The notes beneath the pieces were generated by a model that did no database searches, had not been told where the DNA came from, and saw only the letters and a program-made list of their open reading frames with translations. Shown here piece by piece: positions 30,475 to 34,125 of a DNA stretch of 36,637 nt; the stretch's first letter is position 1, and the number at the start of each line of letters is the position of its first letter. This DNA is from Paludibacteraceae bacterium (GTDB taxonomy: Bacteria > Bacteroidota > Bacteroidia > Bacteroidales > Paludibacteraceae), in NCBI GenBank assembly GCA_017559385.1, contig JAFYSK010000047.1, forward strand, positions 1-36,637, written 5' to 3'. The position numbers were made by a program, and so were the translations under genes.

Positions 30475-30505
30475 CAAAGGTACTACAAAAAATGCACATA
30501 CGCAA
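30475..30505 (-). promoter_or_regulatory. Promoter of ffh
   Basis: On the minus strand TTG (30503-30505), a 20-base spacer and TACCTTTG (30475-30482) match the Bacteroidota consensus. The -33 element and most of the spacer lie inside the edge of the repeat array that starts here: the same bases recur at about 30733, 31226 and 31628, but without the -7 box. Confidence 0.75.
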
Positions 30506-30670
30506 GCGAAACGAGCATTTTTTGTGGAAAATAGATAGATTTCAATCTATTTCAAATGGTATTCATCACTCATTTAAGCTCGCTTAAGAATGAGGTGATG
30601 GATAGCAGATGATAAGGCGAAGCCGTATTTTCTACAAAAACTGCGAGTGTAGCGAGAGTATGGGCTGCAT
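30490..30670. repeat. Fold-back module A
   Basis: Arms 30515-30533 and 30625-30644 pair over about 19 bases with two imperfections, one of which can be a G-U pair. Inside lie the hairpin ATAGAT-ttca-ATCTAT and a second hairpin around 30565-30600 with a CTCG loop. The outer flanks 30490-30514 and 30645-30670 are those shared with modules B and D. Confidence 0.65.
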
Positions 30671-30722
30671 TTCGCGAACGTAGCTACGAGGAGGGACCCA
30701 CAAAGTGGGAGGTGCACTCGAA

Positions 30723-30911
30723 GTACAACAAAAAATGCACATACGCAAGTAAACGAACACTTTTTATAAGAAAATAATAGATTTCAATCTATTTGTAACA
30801 ACTTTTATCCCACTCTGTGAGCTTGCTCATAATAGTGTGGATAGAAGTGGTACAATAAGGCGGAGCCGATTTTCTTATAAAAAGAGTGAGTGTCTGTAGT
30901 ATGGGCTGCAT
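30723..30911. repeat. Fold-back module B
   Basis: Arms TTTTTATAAGAAAAT (30761-30775) and ATTTTCTTATAAAAA (30869-30883) pair perfectly over 15 bases. Inside are AATAGAT-ttca-ATCTATT and a long imperfect hairpin joining TTGTAACAACTTTTATCC to GGATAGAAGTGGTACAA. Flanks are shared with modules A and D, but the arm sequence is different. Confidence 0.7.
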
Positions 30912-30920
30912 GATGCGAAA

Positions 30921-31227
30921 GTAGCTACGGGGGAATTGGCTTTATTGCGTTGTTTTATGCGCGGGTAAAATAAAGCCAAGGCAGTGTCCGACGGTACGAC
31001 AAAAAAGTGCGAGCGTAACGAGAGTATGGGCTATCAATAGGGCTCCCGCAAAGCTCGTGGCTTTGTGGGAAGAGGAGCAAACGCGGTCATCCTCAATTTG
31101 CGGCGCAAATTCTTATGACAAGCGGATTGCGACGAGCGAACGTAGCTACGGGGGAATTGGCTTTATTGCGTTGTTTTATGCGCGGGTAAAATAAAGCCAA
31201 GGCAGTGTCCGACGGTACGACAAAAAA
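30921..31227. repeat. Exact 86-base direct repeat with a GGCTTTATT hairpin
   Basis: 30921-31006 and 31142-31227 are identical over 86 bases. Each copy contains an 11-base perfect stem TTGGCTTTATT / AATAAAGCCAA (first copy 30936-30946 with 30969-30979) and ends in the GTGTCCGACGGTAC phrase plus a short A-run. The stretch between the copies holds CCCGCAAAGC / GCTTTGTGGG and AATTTGC-ggc-GCAAATT hairpins. Confidence 0.85.
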
Positions 31228-31402
31228 TGCACATACGCAAGCAAAACGAGAAATATTTGCAAAAAAAGATAGACTAATCTATCTGTGATAGTTTTCCGCT
31301 ACGCAATGAGAACTCGTTCTTAATTGTGCAAGCGGAAAGATAGCGCAAAAGTGAAACGATTTTTGCAAATATTTCGAGTGTAGCGAGAGTATGGGCTGCA
31401 TA
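31221..31402. repeat. Fold-back module D
   Basis: Arms AAATATTTGCAAAAA (31251-31265) and TTTTTGCAAATATTT (31360-31374) pair perfectly. Inside are AGATAGA-ctaa-TCTATCT and a hairpin joining TTTCCGCT to AAGCGGAAA. The 3' flank 31376-31401 is identical to that of module A. It leads directly into the 152-base block at 31405. Confidence 0.7.
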
Positions 31403-31404
31403 GT

Positions 31405-31556
31405 GCGTGAAGGAGTGCGACGGAACGCACTCCGAGTGTTGTGCCCGAAGAGTTCCCACTCTGAGGAATCAGCACAACACATAGAATGGCGCGACCCTTG
31501 CGGTCACGCAGCCGTATGGCTATAGGGTAGTGCCGTACAGGGTAGGCACGACCGCC
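31405..31556. ncRNA. Candidate structured RNA, copy 1 of a 152-base pair
   Basis: At least five hairpins in a row: GGAGTGCG/CGCACTCC, GTGTTGTGC/GCACAACAC enclosing AGAGT/ACTCT, GCGCGACC/GGTCACGC with one mismatch, AGCC-gtat-GGCT and GTGCC/GGCAC. The second copy at 31737-31888 differs at 13 positions without any gap, and three pairs of changes restore pairing. Which strand is transcribed, or whether it is transcribed at all, is not shown by the sequence. Confidence 0.5.
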
Positions 31557-31619
31557 TATGGTCTATGATATTACATCAACGATGTTGTGTGCTTTATAAA
31601 GCCAAGGCAGTGTCCGACG

Positions 31620-31694
31620 GTACAACAAAAAATGCACATATGCAAGTAAACGAACACTTTTTATAAGAAAATAATAGATTTCAATCTATTTGTA
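31620..31694. repeat. Truncated fold-back module E (left arm only)
   Basis: Identical to the left half of module B (30723-30797) except for one base, but the inner hairpin and the right arm are missing. The sequence jumps from the TTTGTA word to CAATAAG, as if deleted between short repeats, and then continues to the second 152-base block. Confidence 0.75.
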
Positions 31695-31736
31695 CAATAA
31701 GACAAAGCAGTCTCTCTGCTATTTACTTAAGATTCA

Positions 31737-31888
31737 GCGTGAAGGAGTGCGACGGAACGCACTCCGAGTGTTGCGCCCGAGGAGTCCCCACTCTGAGGAG
31801 TAAGCGCGACACATAGAATGGCGCAACCCTTGCGGTTGAGCAGCCGTATGGCTATAGGGTAGTGTCGTACAGGGTAGACACGACCGCC
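31737..31888. ncRNA. Candidate structured RNA, copy 2 of a 152-base pair
   Basis: Same length and hairpin order as 31405-31556. Relative to copy 1, GTGTTGTGC/GCACAACAC becomes GTGTTGCGC/GCGCGACAC (one compensated pair and one wobble), GACC/GGTC becomes AACC/GGTT, and GTGCC/GGCAC becomes GTGTC/GACAC. The pattern supports selection for base pairing rather than for primary sequence. Confidence 0.5.
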
Positions 31889-32052
31889 GATAACGCGCAT
31901 TAAGATTTAATAATATTTCTCGCCGCAGGCGTAGGAGCTAAATAAACCAGAGAGCCGATGTCCGACGGTACAACAAAAACTGTGAGTGTAGCCGTCAAAT
32001 TGTTGAAAACCGCATCTTTTTCACAATTTTTCACTAAAATTATTAAAAACAC

Positions 32053-32955: not shown

Positions 32956-34125
32956 ATGAAAATAAACATACAAACCAACAAATTTAATTCGGATTTTGCT
33001 TGCGTGTTGGAGATTATCCAACAGCACCGTACTCAAGCAGCGCGAGCAATTAACCATGCTTCAATATTGACAGCATGGCATGTTGGTGCGTATGTGTCAG
33101 AAAAAATCAAAAATGCCCAATGGGGGGCAAAAGTGGTACAGCAATTGGCTGAATATATCCATACACAAGACCCTACTTTGAAAGGTTGGAGCAAACGTAG
33201 TATCTACAAAATGATACAATTCTATGATTTGTACTCGTCTAAGCCTTTCATAGAACGAGCTAACACACTAAAAATTCTGCCTAATCAATCACAATTGGTT
33301 CAGACAGAATCAACACAAATGAGTGACACACTAATTGTGTCACCAATGGCGGCACAATTATACCAAGATGAATTTATGCCACCAACGGCGGCACAAATAC
33401 TAACTTTTTTACTCAAGACTACTTGGACTAATCACCAAATCATCATGGGGAGTTGTTCTCACCTTGATCAACAGATATTTTATATACTTTATGCCGAATA
33501 CGAGCACTTAAAGAAAAGAGAACTCGAGCGAGCAATCAAAGCTGATACTTATTCTCGCATGTTGAGCGATAAGAAATGGCAATCACAATTGTTGAAGACT
33601 ACCTATCCACAAGCACAAGTATTGCTAAAAGATAAAGCTATTTTAGAGTTTCTAGGACTACCCAAACAGCATAAAGAAAGTAAGTTACGCAAGGGGATTG
33701 TGCAGCACATGCGTGAATTCATTGTAGAGTTAGGAAAAGACTTCCTTTTTATGGATGAAGAGCATCCTTTAGAAGTTGGAGGAAAGACTTATCGTTGTGA
33801 TTTGCTCTTCTTCCATCGCGCTCTGCAATGTTTGGTTGCTATAGAACTTAAAACTACTGAGTTTGATCCTCGCGATTTGGGACAATTAGAATTTTATCTT
33901 GAAGCATTAGATCAAACAGAGCGTAGAAGCAATGAAAATCCAAGTATTGGTATATTAATGTGTAAAGATGCCAATCCCGAAGTAGTACGTTATGCGCTTA
34001 ATCGCAGTATGAGCCCTACAATGATTTCCCAATACGAAGATCAACTGAAAGTAGGAAGTGTATTACAACGAAGTTTAGAAGAATTTACAGTTTTTTTGGC
34101 TGATAACCAAATAAACTACAAATAA
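32956..34125 (+). CDS. PDDEXK nuclease-family protein, DUF1016/YhcG type
   Basis: 389 residues. The N-terminal DUF1016 domain has ARAINHASILTAWHVGAYV, NAQWGAKVVQQLAEYI and GWSKRSIYKMIQFYDLY. The C-terminal PDDEXK nuclease-like domain has ILEFLGLPKQHKESKLRKGI, GGKTYRCDLLFFHRALQCLV with Asp282, AIELKTTEFDPRDLGQLEFY with Glu297 and Lys299, and NPSIGILMCKD. The catalytic D...ExK set is complete. Such genes are found singly in accessory regions, often near restriction or other defence genes; a role in DNA processing or defence is inferred. Between the domains lies a less conserved insert whose DNA holds an 8-base inverted repeat (33323-33343) and a 39-base in-frame duplication. Confidence 0.92.
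   Translation: MKINIQTNKFNSDFACVLEIIQQHRTQAARAINHASILTAWHVGAYVSEKIKNAQWGAKVVQQLAEYIHTQDPTLKGWSKRSIYKMIQFYDLYSSKPFIERANTLKILPNQSQLVQTESTQMSDTLIVSPMAAQLYQDEFMPPTAAQILTFLLKTTWTNHQIIMGSCSHLDQQIFYILYAEYEHLKKRELERAIKADTYSRMLSDKKWQSQLLKTTYPQAQVLLKDKAILEFLGLPKQHKESKLRKGIVQHMREFIVELGKDFLFMDEEHPLEVGGKTYRCDLLFFHRALQCLVAIELKTTEFDPRDLGQLEFYLEALDQTERRSNENPSIGILMCKDANPEVVRYALNRSMSPTMISQYEDQLKVGSVLQRSLEEFTVFLADNQINYK

Follow-up and report, generated by a model that had tools for sequence, protein, structure and literature searches.

Two nearly identical blocks, 31405-31556 and 31737-31888, lie between ffh and the next gene in the window, i.e. the whole 36,637-nt stretch of Paludibacteraceae DNA analysed here. 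What kind of sequence are they, and in which form, RNA or DNA, are they selected? An earlier note had read the differences between them as a sign of selection on a folded RNA or on a DNA cruciform. Our best explanation, to which we give about an even chance, is that each block is a copy of a mobile DNA element that is non-autonomous and is selected as a folded plus strand.

Differences between the two blocks

The blocks align without gaps over 152 nt with 13 differences, the number given in the earlier note, and a 14th difference lies just beyond, at 31557/31889. All three compensated pairs described there were recovered: T-A to C-G at 31442/31474, G-C to A-T at 31493/31505 and C-G to T-A at 31533/31546. 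The two further changes from A-U to G-U were found at 31449 and 31476, where an A-T pair becomes G-T, and the stem that trades one mismatch for another is P3 (31506/31507). The differences at 31454, 31468 and 31470 are in unpaired positions. Each block forms 40 of 41 standard pairs. When the same substitutions were placed at random positions in 200,000 randomised copies, three or more compensated pairs were obtained in 45 copies, and no more than one pair was broken in 14,243. The claim that chance would not place differences in this way thus holds for their coupling. It does not hold for their location, since 10 of the 13 differences are in paired positions and these make up 82 of the 152, so that the share is only mildly raised. 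The improbable feature of the differences is their coupling, not where they fall.

Anatomy of the repeat

The repeat consists of two modules, with the following features in the window:

31406..31486, plus strand: copy 1, module A, arranged GTGAAG-P1-CGAG-P2-CATAGAA; match to model R1, E 7.6e-30 (a model built with this module among its sequences)
31412..31433, plus strand: copy 1, hairpin P1 with the six-base loop ACGGAA; helix 1 of the covariation set
31436..31480, plus strand: copy 1, hairpin P2 with the CCGA/GAGG tandem G.A internal loop; helices 2 and 3
31487..31556, plus strand: copy 1, module B with hairpins P3, P4 and P5; in 28 sequences, both partners vary at 8 of 21 pairs
31738..31818, plus strand: copy 2, module A; match to model R1, E 4.4e-29
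31819..31888, plus strand: copy 2, module B; right border CGCC

Module A, of about 81 nt, occurs alone or followed by the roughly 70 nt of module B, whose motif is present in 70 of 169 distinct copies. P2 of copy 1 also has a 4-5 nt bulge and, in the apical stem-loop 31449-31462, a C-rich loop. The loop of P5 in module B is GTACAGGGTA. Thirty chosen genomes yielded 14 examples of a short form whose P2 is a plain hairpin, spread over 13 of them, and five loci (L005, L006, L060, L066 and L273) carry an extra hairpin of the GGGGTCCCC type, about 43 nt long, inside the P3 loop of module B. Such short forms and extra hairpins indicate that modules are exchanged. In L250, L253 and L251, P1 is followed by a different second hairpin and tail (CGATAGTGAACGC...CGGGAGAA) or stands immediately 5' of a GTACAGGG hairpin; with these differing partners it constitutes a wider superfamily.

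Covariation across the family

The paired differences had been taken to imply selection, and a larger set of homologues bears this out. Module A was analysed in 74 sequences, which remained when 122 hits of a pattern requiring the motif ends were thinned at one difference; degraded copies are under-represented as a result. Both sides change in 18 of the 24 pairs and 94.8% of the cells pair, against 21-51% in controls with slid partners, where at most 8 pairs change on both sides. Cells with changes on both sides number 205, compared with 49.5 after shuffling, and none of 500 shuffles reached the observed value. The top 19 column pairs by APC-corrected mutual information comprise 14 pairs of the structure and five immediate neighbours. 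On a FastTree tree, rough because the sequences are short, 21 pairs show 71 double changes from one Watson-Crick pair to another and 33 single ones, versus a single double change in the slid control. In P1 (helix 1), five of the eight pairs change on both sides and 99.0% of cells are paired. An even spread of changes over paired and unpaired positions was sought in these homologues and was absent. Selection on a fold that is kept while its bases change in matched pairs is strongly supported.

Module B was compared in 28 of 36 distinct modules, the eight with other stem lengths being omitted. Paired cells amount to 91.0%, versus 85.3% after shuffling. Further pair types are not raised in this set (204 of 500 shuffles reach the observed value), and P4 is invariant in the 28 rows.

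The two blocks are members of a dispersed family and not an isolated twin. Their differences probably repeat, for the most part, variation that is family-wide, and need not have arisen in the window. The mismatches that flank the P1 loop also covary: A-CGGA-A alternates with T-CGGA-T or T-TGAA-T (columns 15/20 and 16/18 of alignment A1), with 40 AA and 31 TT among the 74 sequences.

Distribution and genomic setting

The genome that contains the window has 10 matches: seven near full length, one module A and two fragments of about 30 nt. Searched as DNA, the repeat was found in 16 of 61 genomes (own genome included), and all 16 belong to one genus. A covariance model of module A, applied with strict filters under which weak members may be lost, gave at least one match in 105 of 178 genomes of this genus, with 1-20 per carrier, and none in the other 73. 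With the same strict filters, 5 of 120 genomes matched at the family level, in 3 of 33 genera, and 2 of 393 at the order level, both of the genus. A degenerate pattern was found in at least 118 stretches; among the matches listed, 79 of 80 are from Bacteroidales, Bacteroidia or Paludibacteraceae, mostly metagenome-assembled genomes (MAGs), and the hosts, where named, are ruminants or pig. The repeat is thus nearly restricted to MAGs of one genus of gut Bacteroidales (Paludibacteraceae). One of these 80 matches lies on a small contig of an Erysipelotrichaceae MAG, and locus L112, an insertion frame that is filled, is on a 3.8-kb contig binned as Erysipelotrichaceae. This assignment of a repeat-bearing contig is probably a binning error.

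Viral contigs gave no match to an exact 27-mer or to a degenerate 30-mer, and blastn gave no match to the block in plasmids and phages. With Rfam 15, the blocks have no match at the gathering score or at E up to 5, and at E up to 0.5 none was obtained for the copies of six loci. Off the blocks, Rfam gave only sub-threshold matches of miRNA, snoRNA and L20-leader type, plus a group II intron end (RF02001, 40.7 bits) on the minus strand at the window edge, positions 1-50. A hammerhead- or twister-like ribozyme and a group II intron were dropped as readings of the block: the conserved bases do not fit and Rfam is silent there.

The fetched loci contain the 169 distinct copies, of which 112 have flanks long enough for their ORF context to be determined. 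According to a simple ORF caller, 107 of these 112 lie between ORFs and five inside an ORF call. The copy is on the same strand as the downstream gene in 70 of the 107 (p 0.002), and where both flanking genes share a strand, ++ is found 41 times and -- 19 times (p 0.006). Neighbours are mostly unrelated: no Pfam family adjoins more than four of the 80 flanking ORFs scanned (229 were found, 110 drawn randomly and 80 kept, short and very long ones being omitted).

A tandem array at ffh

Both copies in the window are located in a tandem array of five units, 30481-31968, between ffh and the next gene:

30475..30482, minus strand: Bacteroidota-type -7 box TACCTTTG, which reads CAAAGGTA on the plus strand
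30481..30723: U1, without a repeat copy; left end TACTACAAAAAATGCACATACGCAAG at 30481
30724..30994: U2, with other hairpin cargo, delimited by unit ends
30995..31215: U3, with other hairpin cargo and a degenerate left end, delimited by unit ends
31216..31620: U4, which carries copy 1, delimited by unit ends
31621..31968: U5, which carries copy 2; a corresponding stretch is present in genome G452

The units each begin with TACnACAAAAAATGCACATACGCAAG, in one case in a degenerate form. Hairpins of other kinds are the cargo of U1-U3. U1 ends with CGAAG and U2-U5 with CGACGG, each followed by TAC. The -7 box is taken here to be the ffh promoter, and it is kept upstream of ffh in several relatives that have no array. 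The left end of the units also aligns at the ffh promoter in 5 of 12 loci without the repeat. Outside the window, 18 of 24 left ends in the same genome (G000) are preceded by CAAAGG, a piece of the Bacteroidota -7 box read on the complementary strand. With their left ends at a -7 box, the units run from promoter to promoter. The region around U4 (31206-31630) has a folding z of -9.4 on the plus and -7.9 on the minus strand. The counterpart of U5 in G452 is supported by locus L274, to which 31597-31982 aligns over 386 nt at 96.9% identity. The left ends of the units resemble the stretch of ffh's own promoter that lies upstream of the -7 box. Among the relatives compared, G452 has two units and the others have no match beyond the promoter stretch. 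The second listed ORF past the array (32956-34125, plus strand) encodes a YhcG/DUF1016 PDDEXK nuclease.

Borders, empty sites and candidate enzymes

The borders of the repeat were examined by comparing A+B copies in pairs of 90% identity or more, of which 469 remained once those alike over more than 40 nt on both sides had been removed. Similarity stops 1-2 nt to the left of TGAAG in 353 of these pairs. On the right it stops exactly at CGCC in 203 and extends further elsewhere. All 155 nt of copy 1 are found identical in contig C9 of G452, amid other flanks; the ffh genes of the two genomes are 90% alike. Of 16 ffh-upstream loci found, 13 were compared: 12 are without both copies, and G452 has copy 2. 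From 126 candidates given by an automatic search for empty sites, one was examined, a filled site on contig C59 of G000 that is empty in L069. A frame in which GAGTGGC is joined to TGATTGAC is empty in L241 and L110 and filled in L014, L015, L028, L036, L112, L131 and L156. No clean target-site duplication was noted in an unsystematic look at the copies.

Candidate enzymes were searched for in 22 genomes. A Y1 transposase matched in five, of which only G478 is among the 11 many-copy carriers; the carriers are incomplete MAGs, and the search detected 5 of 14 positive controls. No genome exceeded the cut-off for an integron integrase (best score 89.5 against 265 bits), and none of the 14 controls did either. 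No Y2 transposase was matched, the controls being equally silent. These absences are weak because the genomes are incomplete.

RNA or DNA

The tandem G.A/A.G internal loop of P2 is kept in 70 and 68 of the 74 module-A sequences. On the other strand it would read T.C/C.T, which makes the plus strand the likelier folded strand and a symmetric cruciform less likely. Predicted folding energies do not separate the strands: as RNA, copy 1 has z values of -4.97 and -5.09 on the two strands, and as DNA the plus strand has -5.2 for copy 1 and -4.1 for copy 2.

In a working RNA of the plus strand, G.U pairs are expected to be common and A.C rare. Both were counted at 21 module-A pairs (the three pairs of a variable stretch were omitted) in the 120 unique rows that 262 nhmmer hits gave after those with eight or more gaps had been dropped. 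Of the 2518 cells, 2456 are Watson-Crick, and G.U occurs in 24 versus 17 for A.C. SRP RNA of the same genus was chosen as the control (30 loci among the matches listed, 26 distinct); ARAGORN gave no tRNA on the loci. In SRP RNA, G.U occurs 58 times (in 8 column pairs) and A.C not once in 832 cells, with a structure from RNAalifold, a choice biased toward pairs that can be G.U but not A.C. Fisher's test on the two spectra gives p 0.012 by columns; by cells it gives 3e-8, although the cells are not independent of one another. The wobble spectrum of module A does not support a folded host RNA. Of the two forms proposed in the earlier note, a selected fold is therefore retained, and neither the symmetric cruciform, in view of the G.A loop, nor a host RNA, in view of the wobble, is favoured. 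DNA is a likelier material for the folded single strand than host RNA.

Against a mobile DNA element, the main rival is a structured host RNA. The blocks could be a cellular structured RNA (UTR element, sRNA or ribozyme) that spread by duplication and whose plus-strand transcript is selected, a possible reading that we hold to be the less probable one. The fold of several hairpins with conserved unpaired bases, the G.A loop confined to one strand and the shared direction with the downstream gene would all suit it. Module B, with one C.A column pair (20 of 28) left out, has seven G.U and no A.C and leans toward RNA-type wobble. However, the module-A wobble differs from that of SRP RNA of the same genus, the blocks match nothing in Rfam, the neighbours are mostly unrelated, and 73 genomes of the genus gave no match under strict filters. 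Nor do T[AG]nnTTTG boxes peak close to the copies: the 100 nt upstream of 131 copies contain 14 of them on the plus strand, in a distribution that is flat over 400 nt. Around these copies, -7-type boxes number 104 upstream on the minus strand, 80 downstream on the plus strand, 59 upstream on the plus strand (43 after shuffling) and 53 downstream on the minus strand. They point away from the repeat, which thus shows no clear sign of having its own promoter.

The arms of the hairpins could also be coupled by mutation, with no selection on the fold, if template switching at quasi-palindromes corrected one arm from the other. The very high Watson-Crick fidelity, the small number of one-sided intermediates and the near equality of G.U and A.C are what such correction would leave, yet we consider it unlikely. 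It would erase the tandem G.A loop, the 4-5 nt bulge, the C.A of P3 (20 of 28) and the A.G of P5 (26 of 28), and all of these persist. Moreover, many unpaired bases are among the most conserved, and the pairs of one helix change independently: columns 8/27 (GC or AT) and 14/21 (GC or CG) are found combined in all four ways. Chance, or coincidental changes after a local duplication of the block, would fit the two copies that the window alone shows, and is a negligible explanation given the 45 cases in the randomised copies, the covariation in 74 module-A sequences and the double changes on the tree.

For the mobile DNA element, we propose that an enzyme acting in trans would recognise, copy or move the unit as a folded plus strand, made of P1, then P2 with its tandem G.A loop and bulge, and of P3-P5 if module B is present. 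Copy lineages would be amplified only with an intact fold, and changes would then accumulate as matched pairs. The two copies in the window would have been carried as cargo of the promoter-to-promoter units U4 and U5. The data establish the covarying fold, its dispersal, the abrupt borders, the empty sites and the near confinement to one genus; that mobility is the trait under selection, that the substrate is a single strand and that it is DNA and not RNA is our inference. Several observations weigh against this explanation. The mobilising enzyme was not found (Y1 in 1 of 11 many-copy carriers, which are incomplete MAGs), and the bias to the strand of the downstream gene could mean a transcript. 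In the apical stem alone, picked after the fact, G.T exceeds A.C by 11 to 1, and module B gives the 7 to 0 mentioned above. The flanks are themselves repeats, and old paralogues that recombined into mosaics could account for the borders.

A bolder version, which we regard as rather unlikely, is a new mobile system of Bacteroidales in which an enzyme other than a Y1 transposase or an integron integrase inserts folded cassettes (A, B and other hairpin modules), in single-stranded form, into a limited number of host frames, among them the promoter-to-promoter units at -7 boxes. If true, whole intergenic regions would be built from interchangeable hairpins.

The repeat offers a large natural set of compensatory changes, with its 169 distinct copies, in a seemingly mobile element. 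It raises a testable question: can folded single-stranded DNA leave the covariation that is usually taken as proof of a structured RNA? If it can, some of the RNAs counted in covariation screens of metagenomes are in fact DNA elements. The comparison of wobble with A.C is simple to use elsewhere.

Relation to known repeats

A literature search, mainly outside subscription journals, found no description of this repeat among the papers listed. REP and REPIN sequences, which go with TnpA-REP (RAYT), are intergenic repeats that fold and probably move as hairpins of single-stranded DNA. REP units measure 20-40 bp, and in contrast to them 10 of 11 carriers here have no Y1 transposase match. Integron attC sites are folded single-strand recombination sites, and the host units here likewise form a tandem array. 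The best integrase score in the 22 genomes, in contrast, is the 89.5 bits reported above, far from a cut-off that no control exceeded, and the unit ends GGTAC are presumably unlike the attC core.

Judged by their descriptions, bcr1 and ERIC are nearest in kind to the repeat, which has the traits of such structured repeats: unrelated intergenic sites, a shared secondary structure and lineage restriction. ERIC is also known for insertions at set places. ERIC sequences are structured intergenic repeats of about 127-140 bp with a single long stem-loop, and bcr1 elements are 147-167 nt long with a shared secondary structure (PMC2267715). In other reports, bcr1-bcr3 are described as MITE-like and bcr10 and bcr18 likely RNA elements (PMC6542083, PMC3446304), and a TTTAT motif is described for bcr elements (PMC6542083). 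The bcr1-bcr18 elements of the Bacillus cereus group, compared here by description, are likewise lineage-restricted dispersed repeats. They belong to another phylum, whereas the repeat described here folds into two to five hairpins, keeps a tandem G.A loop and is built from the modules A and B, which can be exchanged. Unlike ERIC, it is made of separate hairpins and modules.
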